15,719 nt of DNA from Candidatus Termititenax sp. Lineage in GTDB: Bacteria > Margulisbacteria > Riflemargulisbacteria > GWF2-35-9 > DYQY01. The notes below the pieces were generated by a model. The model saw only the letters and a program-made list of their open reading frames with translations, made no database searches and had not been told where the DNA came from. Shown piece after piece: positions 1 through 15,090 of the stretch. The position numbers and the translations under genes are program-made. The stretch covers positions 1-15,719 of the forward strand of contig DYQY01000024.1 of assembly GCA_020719045.1 (NCBI GenBank), given 5' to 3'. Position 1 is the first letter of the stretch. The number at the start of each line of letters is the position of its first letter.

Positions 1-3000
1 CCAACACTAAACACCTGTTTTTCAGTTTTTGATATTTTCTGAAATTCAGTTTTAGCAGTTTTAAGTGAGCCGATAAGTCCTTTTTCATCAAACACCGGTT
101 TGAAAAGTATTTCGCCTTTCTCGTTTTTTAACTTGAATTGGTCTTTATACAAATCATTCACAATAGTTTTAGATTGCTCTGGCGATTTACCAGCTTTCAC
201 TAACTCTTCGTATTTCTTTTTAGCCTGCTCTACCAATGCGATTTCAGTTTCAATAGCTGCTATACGAGGATTTACGGTTGATGCACCGCCAGGTTTCTTT
301 TCCTTATCAATCAACTCTCCATAATAATCAAGTATCTGTTTTTGAAGTTTGCTTTTCTTTGTTAACTCTGTGACTTCTTGACCAAGCTCTGTTCTGCTTC
401 CACCGTTTTTTATAGATTCATTTGTTTTTGCAATTTTATCCAACGTGTCTTTATAGTCAGATGATACTTGGTCTAAATATTCTTGTGGAGATGTATTATC
501 CCTAACAAACATATTGTCAAACAACTTAACATCCTTTTTATTGGTGTTTATTGTAGCTTGAATCATGTTGTTTACAGTGTTTTCAAACGAAGATGAATCC
601 AGCATTGCCATCTCTTTGTTTATTTGAGAAATAGCCATTTTAAGCTGTGTAACGCTCGATTCTTTGCCTTCAAATTCAATTACAGACGATTGCTTTCCAT
701 TCTTAGTTGTAGTAATTTTCTTTGTAGCATTCTGTATGTACTCCAAATACTCATTATACTTTTCCTTTGCTATCTTTGCTTTTTTCTCATTAAACTCAAA
801 TGTGGATTCTCCAGCACCTTGTTTTAATTCTGATTGAGCTTCCTTTATCGCTTCTTTTACATCAGAAAATCCTTTAGTGTAAGAATACATTGCTTTTTTA
901 GTAGGAATATCCAACTCTGATGTTTTATCTTTAATGTCTTTCAGTGCATCTAATACGCCTTGAAGTTTCTCTTTAAATGTGACATCTGTAGTTCCTTTAA
1001 AAATATCTTTAAGCCCAAGGGATTTAAGCACATCGCTTAATTTTTGTATTGGAGTTAAGCCTTTCAATCCATCTTTTTCGACATCTGCTAAAAATATCTT
1101 CAATACCTGTCTTGCATCTGTAGCACTAACTCCAGCCTTTTCCAATATCTTTTGAAGCTTTTCAAGTTTTGGTGATATTTTATCGTCTACATTTTTATTG
1201 ATGGCATCCAATGCTTTCTCTTTGGTCTTCGCCTCTATGTAAGCATTAATGGTAGATGTAACCTCTTTATAATTACCATTCAATGCTTTTAAGCCTTCAA
1301 CGGTAAGTAGTTGTTGTGGAAGTATTTCACCGTAAATATTTTTCAATGATTTAAGCGCGTTATCTTGCTCTATGACCGTGCTTGTAGTCGATGTGATAGT
1401 ATCTGCTAAACCTTCGAATCTATTCTCTAATCTAGCAGCTTCTATCGCACCATCGGCTCCAATTTTTTTAATCTCTTTTCCTAATGCGTTTACTTTATCT
1501 TTAAATATACTAAACGATAATGCAAGAGTAGTTATTAACGATATTAATGTAATAATCCATCCAAGTGGATTTGTAGTCATCATTGCAGCAAAAAATCCTT
1601 TAGTAGCTATAGTTGATGTGTTTACAGCAGCTGTGTAAATTTTTTGAGCTGCTGCATTTGCCATTGTTGCACTCATGCCTTGGCCTTGCAAAACAACACT
1701 TATTTCTTGTTGTAAATTAGCTAATTTTTGAGCATCATTCCCAGCCTTCAACACCATATTTTTAATGGTAAGCGATGCAATTTCCATATTATTTAACTGG
1801 GTTTTTTTCCCGGACATAAATAAAGTCAAAGCATCGGATGCCGCAAGCGATTTTGAATACATCAATGCGGAACTTTGAATGCCAATTTTCCGTGTTTCAA
1901 GAGCTATCTGTCGCTCATTATCTGCAATTTGCTTATTTACAAGTGCTTGGCTTAATCCATAGTATTCTAATTGCGCATTTTGTACCATATTCAATCCAAG
2001 CATACTGGCCTTATATACTCCAATTGTAGTTATTACAGGTAAGATTACAGCAGCAATTTCCTTCCAGTTCCTCGCCATAGCCGTAAGCATATCAATAGAA
2101 CCTTTTAATATACCATTCATTGGTTCACTACTACCAATACCTGCAAACATAATCTGATAAGCATCAGTTAAGTTGCTTATCTTACCAGCCAGCGTCTCAG
2201 CTTGTATTCCTTGCATATTGTAGAACATGCCTCCTTCGCCCGACATATCGGCAAAAATATCTTTCACCATTTCGAAAGATACCATGCGCTCCGAAATTTT
2301 ACCAAACACTTCACCAGTACTTACAACACGACCTTCAAGTTCTGTAAATTTATCGGCCAACAATGCCACCAATGGAATACCTGCCTCGGTAAATTGTCGA
2401 AGTTCTTGACCTCTCAACACAGATGCAGCACTTACCTGACCATAAGCGAGAATAATGCGGCTCATATCCACACCAAGCCCAGCCGAAACATCAGCTAAGT
2501 TTTTCATGGTATCGTAAAGCGTATCGGTTTCAATTCGGTATGCTGCCAATTGCTTTGTATAACTCAATAAGTCGCCAAATTTAAATGGAGATACAACTGC
2601 CAAGTTTTTAACTTGTCCGAAAATCTCATTTGCTTTATCGGCACTTTGAATAATAGCTGCCAATGATTTTTCTTGTAATTCAAATTGCCCGGTAACTTCT
2701 GCAATGCTTTTCACTAATCGACCAGCTTCATAGAGAGATATGTAAGTAGCTGCCATGTTTCGCAAATTCGAAATAACGGTGCTTTGCTTATCAAATGCTG
2801 CGGTTTCGTTATTGATAGCTTTTGTTTTTTGCTCACTAATGCCAAGCGCACGAGCATTTTCAGCTGACAATTCTGCCTGCTTTTTATTTATAGCACTTAT
2901 CGAGTTTGCATATCCGGGGTCGGTTCTATTTAATGCATCGCGCCTACGTGCCAATTCAGCCATCAATACATTTGCCTCTTGTATAGATTTTGGGTTGATT

Positions 3001-3884
3001 TGCAGTAAACTATCAAGGCTACGATTACCGAAACCTGAACGAAGTGTTGCTAACTTTTGAGTAAGCCTATTCAATTCTTCATTTGCAGTTCTGAAAGCAC
3101 CGTTCAATTTTTCATCATTCATTCCAACCTTACTTGCGGTATTGCTGAAAATCTGCATTGATTGATTTAGCCTTTGAATTTTTTTCTCAATCTCTTCAAT
3201 GCTGCCTTCTTTCATGCCAAATACATCTTTGGTATTTGTTTTCGAAAGCGCATTTTTTGTAAGTTTCGCATTTTCAGCCTCTACTTGCTTGTAGTACTCA
3301 CGCATTTGAAGTAGCGTGAAATTAGTCGTAGTAAGCTCTGAATTTAGCTTTTGAACGTTAGCTGGAGCACCGCCAAGTTGAATGTTATTCAGCTTATCCA
3401 TAGCTGCTTGTATTAAAACAGCCTCCTTCTTTAAATCTTCAATCCAACCTAATTGAATTGTAGTTTCAGCTCTTGGTTTTTTCTTCTCGGTAATTCCAAT
3501 AAGATCATATTCAATATCGGACATTTCCTTTTTTATCTGCTCAAGCCTTTTCTTCATACCATCAAGTGCGGCATTTTTATCCGACTGATTAGCGTTGTAG
3601 AAGTTTTTAGCCCTAGCTTCAAGCTCCTTATAATACTCCGACATTTCTTTCAGCGTACTATTAACCTTTTCGTTTTGAGCTACCTTTTTATTGGATGTGT
3701 TTGCATTTAACTCATTGCTTGTGTACTTCTCAGCTTCGGCTCCCATTTTAATGACTAACTTCTGTTTATCGAGCAGCGCTTGCCAACTATCTGATAATGC
3801 TTTTATTTCTGCGGTCGCATTAGTACCGCCGGTCTTTACATCGAACTTTACACCGTATTCTAATTGTAAATCATTGTTAGCCAT
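1..3884 (-). CDS. Tail tape measure protein (C-terminus beyond left edge)
   Basis: This protein fills the tail tube, sets tail length and is usually ejected with the DNA. I read a continuous frame of 1,294 codons from the ATG at 3884 to the window edge, checking the phase at several points. Residues 1-370 are Lys/Glu/Gln-rich and largely helical. Residues about 377-580 resemble the conserved tape-measure domain, with segments such as ELQEKSLAAIIQSADKANEI and GQELRQFTEAGIPLVALLAD. Two hydrophobic segments follow at about 609-632 and 774-795 (NPLGWIITLISLITTLALSF), as is usual in tape measures. The rest is a long coiled-coil-rich region (repeated Lys-Glu helices). The start lies 4 nt after the stop of the preceding chaperone frame, the standard gene order in siphophages. 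The size, domain and position make the assignment firm; the true C-terminus is not visible. Confidence 0.93.
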   Translation of the reverse strand, partial: MANNDLQLEYGVKFDVKTGGTNATAEIKALSDSWQALLDKQKLVIKMGAEAEKYTSNELNANTSNKKVAQNEKVNSTLKEMSEYYKELEARAKNFYNANQSDKNAALDGMKKRLEQIKKEMSDIEYDLIGITEKKKPRAETTIQLGWIEDLKKEAVLIQAAMDKLNNIQLGGAPANVQKLNSELTTTNFTLLQMREYYKQVEAENAKLTKNALSKTNTKDVFGMKEGSIEEIEKKIQRLNQSMQIFSNTASKVGMNDEKLNGAFRTANEELNRLTQKLATLRSGFGNRSLDSLLQINPKSIQEANVLMAELARRRDALNRTDPGYANSISAINKKQAELSAENARALGISEQKTKAINNETAAFDKQSTVISNLRNMAATYISLYEAGRLVKSIAEVTGQFELQEKSLAAIIQSADKANEIFGQVKNLAVVSPFKFGDLLSYTKQLAAYRIETDTLYDTMKNLADVSAGLGVDMSRIILAYGQVSAASVLRGQELRQFTEAGIPLVALLADKFTELEGRVVSTGEVFGKISERMVSFEMVKDIFADMSGEGGMFYNMQGIQAETLAGKISNLTDAYQIMFAGIGSSEPMNGILKGSIDMLTAMARNWKEIAAVILPVITTIGVYKASMLGLNMVQNAQLEYYGLSQALVNKQIADNERQIALETRKIGIQSSALMYSKSLAASDALTLFMSGKKTQLNNMEIASLTIKNMVLKAGNDAQKLANLQQEISVVLQGQGMSATMANAAAQKIYTAAVNTSTIATKGFFAAMMTTNPLGWIITLISLITTLALSFSIFKDKVNALGKEIKKIGADGAIEAARLENRFEGLADTITSTTSTVIEQDNALKSLKNIYGEILPQQLLTVEGLKALNGNYKEVTSTINAYIEAKTKEKALDAINKNVDDKISPKLEKLQKILEKAGVSATDARQVLKIFLADVEKDGLKGLTPIQKLSDVLKSLGLKDIFKGTTDVTFKEKLQGVLDALKDIKDKTSELDIPTKKAMYSYTKGFSDVKEAIKEAQSELKQGAGESTFEFNEKKAKIAKEKYNEYLEYIQNATKKITTTKNGKQSSVIEFEGKESSVTQLKMAISQINKEMAMLDSSSFENTVNNMIQATINTNKKDVKLFDNMFVRDNTSPQEYLDQVSSDYKDTLDKIAKTNESIKNGGSRTELGQEVTELTKKSKLQKQILDYYGELIDKEKKPGGASTVNPRIAAIETEIALVEQAKKKYEELVKAGKSPEQSKTIVNDLYKDQFKLKNEKGEILFKPVFDEKGLIGSLKTAKTEFQKISKTEKQVFSV

Positions 3885-3888
3885 AATG

Positions 3889-4173
3889 TTATGTTTTGTT
3901 TAGTTCGTTTCTAATTTGTTCAATTCTATCATCAACCGATACAGTTGGGTTTAATCCGAACCGCTTCAACGTATTTTTAAATTCCTCTTCCGATTTCGGC
4001 TCTTTCGCTGTCCTATTGTCATCTTCCTTCTTTTTTGTGTCGTAGTCAACTCTCGTTTTATCGAGAAGCATTACACTCTGTTTGGTTATTCCATCAATAA
4101 AATGGAACTTCAAATAAGCCCAAATACCACCGTAGGGATAAATCTCCATCATTAGCGAATTGTCGAGCGACAT
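3889..4173 (-). CDS. Downstream tail-assembly chaperone frame (lambda T-like), probably made by -1 frameshift
   Basis: The 94 codons from the ATG at 4173 encode a charged protein (a KKKEDDNRT-type linker, then a helical NTLKRFGLN...RIEQIRNEL tail). It lies between the 146-aa chaperone gene and the tape measure, the position of the T part of lambda gpG/gpGT. The same frame continues upstream without a stop from this ATG back to 4281. It crosses a T9 run that forms an in-phase slippery heptamer for the 146-aa gene. The main product is therefore probably a fusion, and the ATG at 4173 may not be a real start. No sequence motif identifies it alone; the call rests on gene order and the frameshift arrangement. 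An independent small protein remains possible. Confidence 0.75.
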   Translation of the reverse strand: MSLDNSLMMEIYPYGGIWAYLKFHFIDGITKQSVMLLDKTRVDYDTKKKEDDNRTAKEPKSEEEFKNTLKRFGLNPTVSVDDRIEQIRNELNKT

Positions 4174-4190
4174 CTGAAAAAGCGATGGAA

Positions 4191-4631
4191 CTATTTTTGA
4201 TCCATTTTTATCATCTGTATCCGGCTCGCCATCAGGTTTCTTGCAGATATTGAGCCTTTCAAAAAAAAAGCCTGTTCCGGGTTATTTAATCCGGTGTCGA
4301 TAATTCCGCTAAAAACCTCGGTAGTTTTAAACATTCGTAGGTATCTCCAATGGATTGCATGTACGAATGGGATATACGATAATGCATTAAGCATTAGGTA
4401 GCTAGCAATTCGCACATCGCTATTTTTGATTTTACGTAATTGCTTTTTGTGGTTTTTCTCTTTCGAGTAATTCACATCGTAAAGTATGTCGATTATATTA
4501 TCGAGCACTTTACGTTTGGTATCAGATAGCTTGTATTTTTTACCTAATATCTGAACTTCTACTTTAGCCCCTTTTTCAATTCTATGCGAAATGGATGCTA
4601 TCTGATTTATTAATTCTTCTTGGTTGGTCAT
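4191..4631 (-). CDS. Tail-assembly chaperone, upstream frame (lambda G-like)
   Basis: This 146-aa, mostly helical, basic protein lies between the major tail protein and the tape measure, where siphophages encode the chaperone that keeps the tape measure soluble and recruits tube subunits. The middle is helical (KRKVLDNIIDILYDVNYSKE) and is followed by a hydrophobic stretch (YLMLNALSYIPFVHAIHW). At residues 121-124 the codons are GCT TTT TTT TTG, which contain a T TTT TTT slippery heptamer. Translation in the zero frame ends at the TAG at 4191, 23 codons after the slip point. A -1 slip would instead give a 247-aa G-T fusion. Sequence similarity to known chaperones is not obvious to me; such proteins diverge quickly, so the call relies on position and the frameshift. 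Confidence 0.78.
   Translation of the reverse strand: MTNQEELINQIASISHRIEKGAKVEVQILGKKYKLSDTKRKVLDNIIDILYDVNYSKEKNHKKQLRKIKNSDVRIASYLMLNALSYIPFVHAIHWRYLRMFKTTEVFSGIIDTGLNNPEQAFFLKGSISARNLMASRIQMIKMDQK
4223..4256 (-). promoter_or_regulatory. Possible weak stem-loop downstream of the slippery site
   Basis: GGCTC (4256-4252) can pair with GAGCC (4227-4223) around a 24-nt loop. The stem starts 6 nt after the heptamer, the spacing usual for frameshift-stimulating structures. It has only 5 bp and the loop is large, so it may be chance or part of a larger fold such as a pseudoknot. Confidence 0.3.
4263..4269 (-). promoter_or_regulatory. Slippery heptamer T TTT TTT for -1 frameshifting
   Basis: On the minus strand nine T residues (4269 to 4261) follow GC. 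In the zero frame they read GCT TTT TTT TTG, so the heptamer fits X XXY YYZ exactly and both the P- and A-site tRNAs can re-pair after slipping back one base. The -1 frame then reads TTT GAA AGG CTC and enters the downstream ORF. Confidence 0.8.
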
Positions 4632-4645
4632 ATAGTATTTTATTA

Positions 4646-4678
4646 AAAAAGGGCGAGCAGTTATTGCCCGCCCTTTTT
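4646..4678 (-). terminator. Hairpin terminator/attenuator between tail tube and chaperone genes
   Basis: On the minus strand an A-run, a GC-rich stem (GGGCGGGC pairing with GCTCGCCC, one mismatch), a short loop and a T-run lie 23 nt after the stop of the major tail protein gene. This has the form of an intrinsic terminator. No new promoter is evident before the chaperone gene at 4631, so it probably works as a partial terminator that lets the tube protein be made in excess over the chaperones and tape measure. The A-run also makes it usable from the other strand. Confidence 0.75.
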
Positions 4679-4701
4679 AGGTTTTATGAAAATTGAATCT
4701 C

Positions 4702-5289
4702 TTATACGTTTACATCGGCTTCGCCACGGATAACCATAACGGTAGAAAGTGTAGCAGTTGAGATGTCCTGTGCTGTAACTGTACATTTGATTGCAAGAAC
4801 TTTGCTATCCAAAATCATTGTCGAAACAATTTTAGCTTTTGGGAAAAGTATTGCTTGGTTTGCAACATCGTTCAACACCATGATAGGGCATTCCAAAATT
4901 GGAAGTGAGTTTCCAAATCCGGTAGCAGTTGAACTCACTGCAAATACATCATCAACTCCAAACGTAGGAGTTTTGTCTGTTGCTGCTAACAGCTTTTGTA
5001 GAGCTTCTGCTGACGTGTTGTAGCAAATAAACTCGAACTTGTTGGTTCCGGCAACTGCTGTTGAAACCACTACAGCGCCCTTTTCATTTTTTACCAATGT
5101 TTCGGTAGGGGCATCACCTGTAAAGTTGGTAGAATCCAACTTAATATCATTGAGAGATTTCCAACCATCAAACGAAGCTATCGTGGCTGTCGCATAATCA
5201 GGGATGGCGGTAGTTGCAATTGCAACCTCCGAGATGCCACTAAAAATAGTTGATACGGCATCTAATTTTGTAATTTGTTTTGCTGGCAT
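4702..5289 (-). CDS. Major tail (tube) protein
   Basis: This 195-aa protein is rich in Thr, Ala, Val and Ser, with few charged residues after the first third and alternating hydrophobic residues that suggest a beta-sandwich tube subunit. Opening residues MPAKQITKLDAVSTIF and the FDGWKSLNDIKLDSTNF segment are consistent with phage tail tube proteins. It comes after the tail-terminator gene (12-nt gap) and before the chaperones and tape measure, the canonical place for the tube protein. A strong hairpin right after the gene fits a highly expressed structural protein. I do not see an Ig-like extra domain. The family call is by position and composition, so moderately firm. Confidence 0.78.
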   Translation of the reverse strand: MPAKQITKLDAVSTIFSGISEVAIATTAIPDYATATIASFDGWKSLNDIKLDSTNFTGDAPTETLVKNEKGAVVVSTAVAGTNKFEFICYNTSAEALQKLLAATDKTPTFGVDDVFAVSSTATGFGNSLPILECPIMVLNDVANQAILFPKAKIVSTMILDSKVLAIKCTVTAQDISTATLSTVMVIRGEADVNV

Positions 5290-9656: not shown

Positions 9657-9721
9657 AATAAATATGCATCATTTATGTGTATTTTTTTTATAAATATGCA
9701 AATTTAAGTGTAAAATGTATC

Positions 9722-9741
9722 GTATATGCACTATCTTTGTG
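9722..9741 (+). promoter_or_regulatory. Rightward promoter with Bacteroidota -7 element
   Basis: The stretch contains TATCTTTG at 9732-9739, a full match to the TAnnTTTG -7 element of the Bacteroidota primary sigma factor. A clear -33 TTTG is not visible. Transcription would start near 9745, about 12 nt before the terminase ATG at 9758. A nearly identical block (18 of 20 bases) occurs inverted at 9637-9656. Confidence 0.65.
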
Positions 9742-9757
9742 CTTTAAATATGAATTT

Positions 9758-11380
9758 ATGCTGCTAACAAACGCTCAGTTTCAGAAAATAAAGGATAGAA
9801 AAACAAGCCGTTACCTAAATAATGGCTCGCAGACAAACGCATATCAGTGCAAATCGAAAATTGTCATCTATGCTGGTAATCGTGGAAATGGGAAAACGCA
9901 CTTAATTTTAACCAAAATACTTCCACATATATCACTGCCGGAATATCGTTGCGTGTATATGCGTAAGGAAATTAAAGATGCGAGTGGGGCCGGTGGTATA
10001 GTCGATGCTTCGAAAGGCATATTCTCACAATTCGGAACTTATCTCGAATCGCAAGCAAACATGGTGTGGAAATTTCAATCCGGGGCGAGAGCTTCGTTTA
10101 TGAATTATTCTCCAACTCTCAAAGAATTTCAAGAGGCTATACAAGGAAAAGAATACGCACATATATTTATTGATGAGATTACCCACATAGAAGAGGAAAA
10201 GTTCAACGCGCTATTTGCCAACCTTCGTACTACTTATGGAATCAAAACACAGATATTCGGCACTTGTAATGCTGATGCTGATAGTTGGATTTCAAATCTA
10301 ATAGAGTGGTATATCGACCCGGAAACAGGCTTTCACATACCGGAACGCGATGGCAAAGAGCGTTTCTTTTTTCAATATGGTAATACAATTTCGGAAGCTA
10401 TTTGGGGAAATTCTCGCGAAGAGGTTTACGAATTAGCTAAGGATTACATAGCTCCATTTCTCGACAAGAAAATGCTTAAACATAATTCACCATTAGATGT
10501 GATTATGTCGATTTCTGTTTTCGAAGGTAAAATGTCAGAGAATGAGCGTATTATGAAGTCCGGTGGTGGTGGTGTAGAATATCTCGGACAACTACTTAAA
10601 GGCTCTACAGAAATGAAAAACCGCTATGCAAGAGCGTGTTGGAAAAAGTTAGACATGGGTGATTCGCGCGTGTCAGAGGCAGACATGTATCGCTTTTTCG
10701 AAAATGCATATCGCACTACCGGAACCAAATATGCTTCTATGGATATTTCGGGCGAAGGAACTGATAAGGCTACCTTGTGGATTTGGGATGGTATGCACAT
10801 TAAAAACATCTACACTACAAGCGGACTGAAAGCCAAGGCGCTTTACGAGTGGACTGTTCGGCACTTAAATCAAGAAGGCATTCCAGAGCAAAATTTTATT
10901 TATGATGCCATTGGTGTTGGGTACGCTTTTTCTGGCTATTTCGATGAGGCTGTTAAGTTCGTTTCAAATGCTGCCGTATCTGAAAAAAGTAAGGTGAATG
11001 TTGTTGACAAAAAAATGATTAAGATATACGCCAATGCCAAGGCTGAAATAATTGGCAAATTCTTAGAGGTGCTTAATAATTATAACGATACAGGCGAGTG
11101 CGGAATAAGCATAGAGCCGGAACTATTACAGCGCGAGTTCTATGGAAAAACACTCAAAAACCACTTACTACACGAGCGCAAAGCTATTCGGTGGCGGTCT
11201 GATAAAGATGGTGTGCTTCAATGTATCGACAAAAAAGAAACAAAATCAATCGTAGGCCACTCTGCTGACTTTATTTTCGGGCTTATCTATCGGCTCGGAT
11301 TGGATATAGGTCAATTCAAATATGTACCTATGAGCGTAAACACAAAAGCAAATTTAAAAAAATTCTTCATAAAATTATGA
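9758..11380 (+). CDS. Terminase large subunit (packaging ATPase/nuclease)
   Basis: TerL drives DNA into the procapsid and cuts the concatemer. From the ATG at 9758 it has 540 residues. The ATPase domain shows Walker A GNRGNGKT (40-47), Walker B HIFIDE with D139 and E140, and a coupling motif FGTCNAD (168-173). The C-terminal RNase H-like nuclease shows three acidic positions: YASMD (D329), IYDAIG (D383) and HSADF (D504). The frame is open upstream to 9677, but the promoter -7 element at 9732-9739 lies within that extension, so 9758 is the likely start. The gene opens the rightward operon and is 4 nt from the portal gene. All key residues seem present. Confidence 0.95.
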   Translation: MLLTNAQFQKIKDRKTSRYLNNGSQTNAYQCKSKIVIYAGNRGNGKTHLILTKILPHISLPEYRCVYMRKEIKDASGAGGIVDASKGIFSQFGTYLESQANMVWKFQSGARASFMNYSPTLKEFQEAIQGKEYAHIFIDEITHIEEEKFNALFANLRTTYGIKTQIFGTCNADADSWISNLIEWYIDPETGFHIPERDGKERFFFQYGNTISEAIWGNSREEVYELAKDYIAPFLDKKMLKHNSPLDVIMSISVFEGKMSENERIMKSGGGGVEYLGQLLKGSTEMKNRYARACWKKLDMGDSRVSEADMYRFFENAYRTTGTKYASMDISGEGTDKATLWIWDGMHIKNIYTTSGLKAKALYEWTVRHLNQEGIPEQNFIYDAIGVGYAFSGYFDEAVKFVSNAAVSEKSKVNVVDKKMIKIYANAKAEIIGKFLEVLNNYNDTGECGISIEPELLQREFYGKTLKNHLLHERKAIRWRSDKDGVLQCIDKKETKSIVGHSADFIFGLIYRLGLDIGQFKYVPMSVNTKANLKKFFIKL

Positions 11381-11384
11381 TCCA

Positions 11385-12824
11385 ATGAAACCAAATCAAA
11401 TTAAACAGACAAAGTATTGGTCTTTCCCGGCTCCAAAATCAAGCTACTTAATGGATAGCTACAACGATGCTACGAATCTAAAGTTTACTCAACAAAAGTT
11501 TTATGATGAGTACTTCCCAAGCGGACATCAGATATTCAACCCTCTTATTTATCCAGATATTCCAATAATGGATGGAAAAGAAAAAGTGGTTGGTATGCAT
11601 TATGTAAATCGCATATCGCTACCATTTCAACAAGAATCCGTGGAGATTATCTTAGCGCACCTTTTAGGGAACAAAACACAATTCAAAGACAGTACAGTCG
11701 GTGAAAATAACTTCGAAGCGCTTTCGCAATACAAAGAGTTTTGGGATACTAAAAACATTGATGTACTTCGAAATGATTTGATAAAAAGCATTTTAGCAGT
11801 TGGAGATGGTGCTGTGCTTTTCTATCGCGATACAACTACTAAGGAGTTTAAATGGAAAGTACTTTCGTATCTCGATGGTGAAGAAATTTACGAAAAGAAG
11901 GATAAATATGGCGACCTTGAATACTTTGGCCGGTTCTATTCGTTACTTGACGAAACTGTAACCATTGTAGAGTATTGCGATATAGTTAGCAAAACAAGTG
12001 TGGTTACTCACAAAAATACTGAAAAAGGTTGGGTTGTGATTGATAGCGGTTTACATGGATTTAAGACAATACCGATTGTCTATTACAAAAGAAAAGATGG
12101 TGCTTTCTGGACGCCGGTGCAAAATAATATCCACAACCTCGAAGTGATGTATTCTCGACTTTCAGAGGATAATAGAACCAAGGCAAAAGCTCGCTACCAT
12201 TTAAAAACCGACAATCCAAATGACGTGCAAACCATGTCAGCTGGGACCACTGATATTGTCATTACAGATGCTACCGGTGATTTCAAATTAATATCGGGTG
12301 CTGATATTTCTACACAGTTTAAGTTCGAGTGGGAAACCTCTCTCGAAGTCATATCAAATAAACTTGGTATGGTTTTCCCGAAATCAAAATCGAGTGGTGA
12401 TATGCCTACAGGTTCTATGAAAATGATGTTCTATCCTACTGAACGTATTGCACATCAGTTAATTAACGAATTTAATTCGATTATTGATAAGATAAATCGC
12501 ATTGTGAAAGATGGTATTATGTTTGAAATGCCTGCCATTGCAAATGATATTGCAAAAATGAATATCACTGTATTTATCAAAATGTTCACACCACAAGACG
12601 ATGGTTCAGTTATGACAAGTCTTGGTCAAGCTAAACAGTACGGTTCACTTAGCGCACAAACTATTGCTGAAAATATGCCTTATGCTGCCAATGACGAAGT
12701 GAAGCGGTTGGAGGAGCAGGCTAAAAAAGAAGCTGAGGAGTTGGCAAAACAGGAAGCCGCAATGTCATTAAGTTCACCGGCGCAACCAGTAAAAGATAAT
12801 AACCCTGATAATAACAAAAAGTAA
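11385..12824 (+). CDS. Portal protein (SPP1 gp6-like)
   Basis: The portal forms the 12-fold ring at one capsid vertex through which DNA passes. At 479 aa the length is usual for SPP1 gp6-type portals. The sequence runs through an N-terminal region (YVNRISLPFQQESVEIILAH), a helix-rich wing (IDVLRNDLIKSILAVGDGAV), a beta domain (EFKWKVLSYLDGEEIYEKKD), and a stem/crown part with NIHNLEVMYSRLSEDNRTKA and GSMKMMFYPTERIAHQLINE. The last 45 residues are a Lys/Glu/Ala helix and then a Pro/Asn-rich tail. It follows TerL and precedes the minor head genes, as expected. The stop and the next ATG are 1 nt apart. Confidence 0.88.
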   Translation: MKPNQIKQTKYWSFPAPKSSYLMDSYNDATNLKFTQQKFYDEYFPSGHQIFNPLIYPDIPIMDGKEKVVGMHYVNRISLPFQQESVEIILAHLLGNKTQFKDSTVGENNFEALSQYKEFWDTKNIDVLRNDLIKSILAVGDGAVLFYRDTTTKEFKWKVLSYLDGEEIYEKKDKYGDLEYFGRFYSLLDETVTIVEYCDIVSKTSVVTHKNTEKGWVVIDSGLHGFKTIPIVYYKRKDGAFWTPVQNNIHNLEVMYSRLSEDNRTKAKARYHLKTDNPNDVQTMSAGTTDIVITDATGDFKLISGADISTQFKFEWETSLEVISNKLGMVFPKSKSSGDMPTGSMKMMFYPTERIAHQLINEFNSIIDKINRIVKDGIMFEMPAIANDIAKMNITVFIKMFTPQDDGSVMTSLGQAKQYGSLSAQTIAENMPYAANDEVKRLEEQAKKEAEELAKQEAAMSLSSPAQPVKDNNPDNNKK

Positions 12825-12825
12825 T

Positions 12826-13467
12826 ATGGATAAAATACCAATTATAGATAGAAATAAAACCAAAACGGTTCAAAAAGGTGTCGTTAAGGCTGCAAAGCTA
12901 TCTGACAATAAAGTGGATTTGTTTCGCAGGTTAGCATGTGACCTTTTCGTTACCACTAATAATATGGTTTTGGCTCACGATATGTACAGACGCGTAACGC
13001 TCGGTGCTGATTATAGCGAGATTGCTTCGGCCAATTCAGGCGCAAGTATATTTTTCTCCAAACCGGAAAATGCAAACTATATTGATTCGCGCAGAGCTGA
13101 ATTTGCTAAAAGCGGATTTGATGAGTACTGTAGAATGAAAAATATAGAACACTCTGAGTTTGCTGCTATAAAAAACAAGGAGTATGAAGCTATTGCTAGT
13201 TTATCGCCATCAGAGATTCGTGAAAAAAACTATATCGAGCTTGAAATATTGAAGGAAACAACAAAAGATCCTCAAATTTTAGCACAGATAGTAAAACAAC
13301 AAACAGATCTTATGGATGCTAAACTCAAAGATAAGAGTATAGAGCTTAGCGAAACAGAAAAATACATTCATTATTATCTTCCAGCGGATATATGCGACAA
13401 GTGCCCACATAAGACATTTATCGAAGATAGATACAAAGATTTACCAGATATAGATTTAGAAATATGA
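12826..13467 (+). CDS. Possible terminase small subunit / DNA-binding protein
   Basis: A 213-aa protein of uncertain role between the portal and minor head genes. Residues about 60-93 (GADYSEIASANSGASIFFSK, then PENANYIDSRRAEF) resemble the helix-turn-helix end of small terminase subunits, where 'A-G-Y-S...L-x-K/N-P-x-V-x-x-Y-I-x-x-R' is common. Residues 136-172 are helical with a T-K-D-P turn, as in their oligomerisation domain. The C-terminus has YYLPADICDKCPHK, a single CxxC that could bind metal in a multimer. It overlaps the next gene by 4 nt. No other small terminase is visible in the window. The similarity is judged by eye and could be coincidental; an unassigned head protein is the alternative. 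Confidence 0.5.
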   Translation: MDKIPIIDRNKTKTVQKGVVKAAKLSDNKVDLFRRLACDLFVTTNNMVLAHDMYRRVTLGADYSEIASANSGASIFFSKPENANYIDSRRAEFAKSGFDEYCRMKNIEHSEFAAIKNKEYEAIASLSPSEIREKNYIELEILKETTKDPQILAQIVKQQTDLMDAKLKDKSIELSETEKYIHYYLPADICDKCPHKTFIEDRYKDLPDIDLEI

Positions 13468-14258
13468 CAAAACTCGAAATAGAAAATAAGGTTTACGAAT
13501 ATGCAAAGCGCGTTGATTATAATGTAAAAACAACCGATGCAGAAGTAAAGGATAGAATCAATACAGCCGTTCGCGATATAGTTGCGGTTGCTTTTCTCAT
13601 GTCAGTACAAGGCATGGAATTTCGCTTTGGTATGAATCAAAAAGTGAATTTGATTTTGGCTAAAATGAGAAGCGATATTGAAGCGATAATCAAAAAAAAC
13701 GTTCGTTACACAAAGTCAATTTCGAGAAGGCTCAATCTGTCTATGGATTTGGATATTGAGGATTGGGATTCTGATAGCTGGGTTAATTCCGAAAGATATG
13801 GCAAAACTTATTTGCAGCGATTGGCAGTATATTCTAATCGTCTTAAATTTGAGCTGGAGGCTTTCGTGGCTGTAGGTATGGTCAAAAAACTATCTGAACT
13901 CGAAATCACTAATTGGTTTATGCTGAATATCCAATCGCCTCATACGGTTTCTGAAATACTTGATGCAGAAGGCTATTCAGCTGTAAGGGCGAGTGGCATT
14001 TTAGCGGTTGGCGTGGGCGGCATCACATCGGCATACAAATCAATACTTCGCCTCAATCACGATATGATAATGGCTGGATATGCTATTTCAAATAATAAGA
14101 CATGGGGTAAAAATGGATTGTTTAAATATATCCTCGTTGTTAACGATGCCAAAACGTGCGCTGCTTGTCAAATGAATATCGGTGTTATATTTCCGGCTAA
14201 TGAGTTTGTAACTCCGGTTCATTGTAGTTGTCGCTGTAAAGAGGTTGTAATCATGTAG
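13464..14258 (+). CDS. Minor head protein (Mu gpF / SPP1 gp7-like)
   Basis: This 264-aa protein ends with the signature of the Mu F-like head-morphogenesis family: an Asp and CxxC (NDAKTCAACQMNIGVIFPAN, C232 and C235) followed about 20 residues later by PVHCSCRC (C254, C256, C258). The N-terminal two-thirds are helical (LEIENKVYEYAKRVDYNVKT and later SEILDAEGYSAVRASGILAV). In SPP1, gp7 binds the portal and enters the head in a few copies, helping DNA delivery. It is the last gene of the rightward operon and overlaps the previous gene by ATGA. A terminator hairpin follows at once. The cysteine cluster makes the family call secure. Confidence 0.88.
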   Translation: MTKLEIENKVYEYAKRVDYNVKTTDAEVKDRINTAVRDIVAVAFLMSVQGMEFRFGMNQKVNLILAKMRSDIEAIIKKNVRYTKSISRRLNLSMDLDIEDWDSDSWVNSERYGKTYLQRLAVYSNRLKFELEAFVAVGMVKKLSELEITNWFMLNIQSPHTVSEILDAEGYSAVRASGILAVGVGGITSAYKSILRLNHDMIMAGYAISNNKTWGKNGLFKYILVVNDAKTCAACQMNIGVIFPANEFVTPVHCSCRCKEVVIM

Positions 14259-14490: not shown

Positions 14491-15090
14491 TTAATTTATC
14501 CATTCAATTGTAGTTTTACCGCTAAAGCCTTTTTCCCATACATACCAAGCATAAGCAACAGCCGAGCCACCGCCTTTTATCATACCTTCAAAATCTGCAT
14601 TTTTAGCGCATAGCAGCCGACTACTTGAAACATATATCGTTTTAGGTGGATTTGATTGAAATAACTTTTTACGCGCCTTACCTTCCATAAATTGAAGTTT
14701 AAGAAACATTGCCACCTTATTGCCGGTTCTAATAATTGAAAGTGAGTGTTCTATAAACTCTTTAGCAAATTTATATGGTGGATTTGTTATAATATCACCA
14801 TGGAAACTTTCAAAGTTAAAAAAATCAGCCTTATATCCAAATCCTCTGTCAATTAAATCGCAGCTTTCTACTACATGCCCATGCTTTAATAACCGCTTAG
14901 ATAAATGACCTTCACCACATGCAGGCTCCAATATATGCGTGTCGAAACTTTCAACCTCTAACAATAAATCTATCGCTTTTGGTTCTGTAGCATAAAAATC
15001 ATTTTCTTCACGGTCTTTTCCCGTATGATTTGAAGCTCCTAATGTTTTGTAAATGCTATTTTGATTACCCGTCCAATCTTTGTCTGTCAT
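14491..15090 (-). CDS. Orphan N6-adenine DNA methyltransferase (phage Dam-like)
   Basis: The 199-aa protein carries the class I methyltransferase motifs: the SAM-binding motif LEPACGEG (54-61) and the catalytic NPPY (103-106, in DIITNPPYKFA), which marks adenine-N6 methylation. An N-terminal REENDFYATEPKAIDLLLEV segment before motif I is common in phage-encoded members. The enzyme would methylate adenines in phage DNA using S-adenosylmethionine, possibly to evade restriction or mark DNA for regulation. The target sequence cannot be read from the protein. No restriction endonuclease is nearby, so it appears to be an orphan. It is short compared with host methyltransferases and lacks a large target-recognition domain. 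Confidence 0.85.
   Translation of the reverse strand: MTDKDWTGNQNSIYKTLGASNHTGKDREENDFYATEPKAIDLLLEVESFDTHILEPACGEGHLSKRLLKHGHVVESCDLIDRGFGYKADFFNFESFHGDIITNPPYKFAKEFIEHSLSIIRTGNKVAMFLKLQFMEGKARKKLFQSNPPKTIYVSSSRLLCAKNADFEGMIKGGGSAVAYAWYVWEKGFSGKTTIEWIN

Follow-up and report, generated by a model that had tools for sequence, protein, structure and literature searches.

How two overlapping reading frames in the tail operon of a Bacteroidota-type phage come to be joined into one protein is the question raised by the DNA analysed here, a stretch of 15,719 nt (hereafter the window) that constitutes an entire contig of a 1.75-Mb genome bin, in which no 16S gene was found. The tail-chaperone frameshift is textbook programmed ribosomal frameshifting and is conserved across long-tailed phages. 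A programmed −1 ribosomal frameshift was also the original prediction for this locus. The −1 relation, the fusion and the G/GT-type position that it described all stand. The ribosome is less secure as the agent, since the run at the crossing is held at 9 or 10 nt in any codon phase.

Anatomy of the overlapping reading frames

The gene termed G (positions 4191 to 4631, minus strand) is a zero-frame ORF of 146 amino acids. Its reading frame, alignment and position mark it as the short form of a putative tail-assembly chaperone. T (3889 to 4281, minus strand), delimited from the frames and the alignment, is an open region of 130 amino acids in the −1 frame, counted from an upstream TAA, and would form the C-terminal part of a G-GT fusion. 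The zero-frame minus-strand codons at the crossing read directly as CCG GAA CAG GCT TTT TTT TTG AAA GGC. Within them, positions 4271 to 4258 (GCT TTT TTT TTG AA) hold nine T residues at 4269 to 4261, flanked by C and G. This T9 tract, which the sequence, its relatives and the survey below mark as a candidate RNA-polymerase slippage site, is the sole A/T run of at least 9 nt in the window.

As predicted, a T_TTT_TTT heptamer lies in exact phase (4269 to 4263), and T_TTT_TTG follows one codon further on. A TAA (4284 to 4282) shuts the −1 frame just upstream, after which that frame stays open from 4281 to a stop at 3891 to 3889, beyond the TAG that ends G in the zero frame (4193 to 4191). The crossing is thereby restricted to 4281 to 4193, and the fusion comprises 121 + 2 + 124 = 247 amino acids. 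Reading of the frames agrees with the original prediction on the TAA, on the −1 frame that runs past the TAG into a 94-amino-acid ORF, and on the length of the fusion. If translated alone, that ORF would start at an ATG (4171 to 4173) that distant relatives do not have. To judge from the codons, the junction A-F-F-F-E would be identical whether one U is inserted (U10) or the ribosome slips in tandem. The 5-bp stem expected 6 nt after the heptamer is also present, as GGCTC (4256 to 4252) and GAGCC (4227 to 4223); this hairpin (4223 to 4256, minus strand) is a possible ribosomal stimulator and occurs in the nearest relatives only.

The pair lies where it was predicted to lie, between genes for the tube and tape measure proteins, the latter identified by family profiles and the former by position only. 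The tape measure gene (3 to 3884, minus strand) runs off the window and matches Pfam PF20155 TMP_3 (E 7.5e-18) and phrog_9959 (E 8.9e-60). The putative major tail (tube) protein gene (4702 to 5289, minus strand) occupies the same place in relatives and had no significant match in family profile searches. Genes for a head-tail adaptor and the major head protein are located further upstream in the operon, and the gene order around G and T is the same in relatives (the Parabacteroides phages PF672P1/P2 and others).

Neither G nor T has a family match in Pfam, PHROGs or NCBIfam. Comparison of their sequence profiles with solved structures gave chance matches only and no solved homologue, and their AlphaFold models are poor (mean pLDDT 54 and 52). 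It is their position that suggests a chaperone function for G and T. If lambda is a guide, the G portion would be expected to coat the tape measure protein and the T portion to bring in the tube protein, with G alone (146 amino acids) made in bulk and the 247-amino-acid G-GT fusion as the minor product.

Three further features of the window were noted. A terminator-like hairpin with T6 (4655 to 4680, minus strand) lies between the tube gene and G, and 42 of 81 relatives have a similar hairpin with a T tract in the 180 nt preceding G, compared with 10 of 410 control windows. This arrangement suggests a reduction of transcription past the putative tube gene. Terminase and minor head genes (9677 to 14258) are on the plus strand, opposite in direction to the minus-strand capsid-tail operon. 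Finally, a short DNA methyltransferase of 199 amino acids (14491 to 15090, minus strand; phrog_799, E 2.3e-63) covers only positions 186 to 380 of the 458-position profile.

The frame crossing in close relatives and in a wider survey

Searches with G and with T recovered 13 viral contigs, giving nine lineages when the window's own is included. The relatives are IMG/VR contigs and one contig from a metagenome-assembled genome (MAG) labelled Bacteroidetes, and homologues of the tape measure occur in Bacteroides, Parabacteroides, Phocaeicola and Riemerella phages. Neither the DNA nor the T sequence detected a relative in the phage collection. Among 74 genomes of the window's own phylum this is the only copy of the pair, and the G profile gave chance matches only among 395 genomes of the related MAG's phylum beyond that MAG.

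All nine close lineages share the two-frame layout, the T run and the −1 relation. G proteins are 42–86% identical (12 sequences from the nine lineages aligned). T is 46–78% identical over the nine and lies in the −1 frame in every one. Eight lineages carry GCT TTT TTT TTG at the crossing, and L018/L019 carry GTT TTT TTT TCG. A distant, co-linear G homologue with weak similarity (23% identity, E 8e-4) is present in phages PF672P1/P2, where the aligned site is CGC TTT TTT TTT CGG. Across these three kinds of site, T9 thus persists in each of the possible codon phases. Conservation of the T run and of the −1 opening in related phages, which had been proposed as a check on the prediction, was thus found in every close relative.

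To place the T9 tract in a wider context, loci were gathered with tape-measure profiles. A chaperone pair was present in 167 loci, representing 108 distinct regions and 82 clusters at 80% identity; a few survey loci with spurious or no pairs were inspected individually. The longest A/T run at the crossing is A9 in 23 clusters, T9 in 16, A10 in 15, and A8 and T8 in one each, such that 54 of the 82 clusters have a run of 9 or 10 and two have a run of 8. No run of 7 or of more than 10 was found at the crossing in any of the 82. In the remaining 26 clusters no run exceeds 6 nt, and an in-phase heptamer of the G_GGT_TTT, A_AAT_TTT, T_TTT_TTC or T_TTT_TTG type is present in 19 of them. The cultured phages PV4-TP1, BI-TP1 and LoVEphage carry A10.

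Run length does not follow the codon phase. The A runs start mainly in phase 1 but also in phases 2 and 3, the T runs start in phases 3, 1 and 2, and the total is 9–10 whatever the phase. Every run of 9 holds an in-phase heptamer, and the phase-3 T9 holds two. In A-run relatives such as L068, L070 and L108, the site reads GGT AAA AAA AAA and a −1-frame TAA lies inside the run start; the crossing there cannot precede the run and must take place either inside it or further downstream. Extensions 5′ and 3′ of the in-phase heptamer trade off as (2,0), (1,1) and (0,2) and sum to 2–3; the extension beyond the heptamer is 2 nt in 39 clusters, 3 in 15 and 1 in two. Were the heptamer alone under selection, with flanks lengthened at random, a run of 7 would be expected most often. 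The other coding sequence of the same loci (554 kb) contains 102 runs of 7, 22 of 8 and none of 9 or more. Because the T9 tract is the only run of its length in the window, because such runs are absent from this other coding sequence, and because the tract recurs in relatives, the arrangement exceeds what chance would produce.

The agent of the frame change

We consider it likely that this G/GT-type chaperone pair changes frame mainly through RNA polymerase slipping on T9. The polymerase would add one U, generating a share of mRNAs with U10, and normal translation would read these mRNAs straight into the T frame. In many bacteria, slippage in coding regions, and its avoidance, begin at about 9 A/T (PMC1088944), and PTR has been described at An>7 and Tn>8 (PMC3711429). 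Single-nucleotide insertions dominate at homopolymers (PMC5574713), and one inserted base leads into the −1 frame, which fits this bias. The features expected of transcriptional slippage are observed at these loci: a run of about 9 A/T at the crossing, a length independent of phase, and avoidance of such runs elsewhere. It is the length signature of 9–10, together with the published thresholds and the lack of general downstream structure described below, that favors the polymerase. Run length, sequence anatomy and conservation of the fusion frame are observations, from which we infer both the identity of the slipping enzyme and the G:GT ratio.

Ribosomal slippage at T_TTT_TTT (or T_TTT_TTG), aided by the downstream hairpin, is a less probable explanation, although one to be taken seriously; for the A-run relatives it would have the ribosome sliding over consecutive AAA codons. 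It is the known mechanism in lambda (PMC5009743), and it is consistent with the in-phase heptamer in every homopolymer lineage and with the hairpin 6 nt downstream in L006–L009. Furthermore, sister lineages carry the classic G_GGT_TTT, A_AAT_TTT and C_CCT_TTT sites at the same place, so that ribosomes of such hosts are evidently capable of shifting on plain heptamers. However, this explanation requires seven in-phase bases, not 9–10 in any phase, and a run of 7 was seen in none of the 82 clusters. In addition, the last heptamer codon invariably ends in the run base, even though E. coli shifts more readily on A_AAA_AAG (PMC5009743).

Many known cases of ribosomal slippage need a stimulator in addition to seven in-phase bases. 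The stem in the window is real but modest (z −1.3); those of L007 (z about −3.7, 10 bp) and L009 (z −3.4) are stronger. The stem was found in L006–L009 only and is absent from L013, L015 and L018, which retain T9, and its covariation is weak (six rows). Across the homopolymer class, a general conserved downstream hairpin was unsupported: mean z is −0.37 downstream, about equal to −0.31 upstream. The heptamer class has modest downstream structure (mean z −1.01).

An internal Shine–Dalgarno stimulator is unlikely. The gene starts are A-rich and without Shine–Dalgarno motifs (10 of 82, vs 10% in shuffled sequence), and Bacteroidia ribosomes do not use these motifs (PMC9976891). A Shine–Dalgarno-like motif is present at 12 of 56 homopolymer sites and 5 of 19 heptamer sites. 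Hosts that ignore Shine–Dalgarno motifs may offer fewer ribosomal stimulators, a possible reason for taking the polymerase route. Even so, ribosomal slippage may operate, either alone or in addition to transcriptional slippage.

The other explanations dispense with recoding. It is very improbable that G (146 amino acids) and an independent 94-amino-acid protein beginning at the ATG at 4173 are two separate genes, even though gene finders annotate isolated relatives in this way. This codon encodes Met in no lineages but the window's own and its three nearest, and it is Leu or Ile in L011–L016 and L018. The T-frame residues S33 and Q36, located past the G stop and ahead of the ATG, do not vary among relatives, none of which closes the −1 frame within the overlap. 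With the ATG unconserved and these residues invariant, a fusion is favored over a free-standing T. Loss of the T run, or a conserved start at 4173, had been named as evidence against a fusion; close relatives keep the run and do not conserve the start. A lambda G/GT-like fusion is therefore very likely to be real, as judged from these alignments. The expectation that simple annotation would list two ORFs and miss the fusion also holds, since PF672P1/P2, PV4-TP1, BI-TP1 and LoVEphage are each annotated with two hypothetical ORFs.

A replication-slippage (phase-variation) tract or an assembly error, with G and T in-frame in part of the population, is scarcely credible: it draws on the near-identical contigs L195 and L196, whose slip runs are A9 and A10 with the A9 copy out of frame, but the −1 relation holds in 80 of 82 clusters, the same length recurs across independent assemblies, and the two apparent +1 exceptions are explained one by one as the A9 copy of an A10 contig (L195) and a spurious pair (L134). 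The L195/L196 difference is located at about position 3416 and truncates G in the A9 copy, and it could be either a natural change in run length or an assembly error.

Evolution of the crossing and comparison with known systems

Since shared ancestry weakens plain counts of clusters, we used a tape-measure tree, a quick one with many weak forks. On this tree the homopolymer lineages show at least 11 changes of phase and 11 of length, and there are at least eight switches between homopolymer and heptamer. When only 10 distinct run states are counted, the probability of observing no run of 7 ranges from 0.0002 to 0.06 with the extension rate that is assumed. L013 and L015, whose chaperones have T9, nest inside an A9/A10 clade, a placement suggestive of exchange of the chaperone cassette independently of the tape measure gene. 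At the same place, less related tape measures are accompanied by C_CCT_TTT (Bacteroides p00, BKO1-TP4), A_AAT_TTT (Riemerella GDF21), T_TTT_TTC (Salmonella SE13) and G_GGA_AAC (Arthrobacter Reedo, where a frameshift is annotated).

On balance, these data make it more likely than not that a large group of Bacteroidota-type siphophages uses polymerase slippage on A9, A10 or T9, with repeated switches to and from ribosomal heptamers. Full-text searches, drawing on few subscription journals, turned up no account of phage tail-chaperone genes using transcriptional slippage, nor of this frameshift in Bacteroides phages. If most of the group does proceed via the polymerase, then conservation applies to the product ratio rather than to the mechanism, and prediction tools restricted to ribosomal heptamers would misassign or miss such fusions. 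Cultured gut phages (LoVEphage, PV4-TP1, BI-TP1 and PF672) very probably encode unannotated fusion proteins. The gene family would also provide a natural experiment on moves between two recoding mechanisms, larger than that offered by dnaX.

The closest functional parallel is the G/GT tail-assembly chaperone of lambda (Levin 1993; Xu 2004; reviewed in PMC5009743). In both systems two overlapping ORFs lie between the tube and tape measure genes, the second is in the −1 frame, and short and fused products are expected. Lambda has its own type of heptamer, in contrast to the homopolymer of 9 described here, and no chaperone family of Pfam, PHROG or NCBIfam resembles G or T in sequence. The slippage sites of Thermus dnaX and Shigella mxiE/spa13 (PMC1088944, PMC5009743) resemble the present one in that about 9 A/T in a coding region give a second product. 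In contrast to those genes, the pair described here belongs to a phage structural operon, would yield a C-terminal extension and is known from DNA sequence alone. Insertion sequence (IS) elements with A9/T9 slippage (PMC1088944) also link two overlapping ORFs through a slip run, although they encode a transposase and do not serve tail assembly. Among bacteria, dnaX homologues use either transcriptional slippage or ribosomal frameshifting (Larsen 2000, as cited in PMC3711429), as we propose for these phages, where many apparent switches have occurred within one phage gene family.
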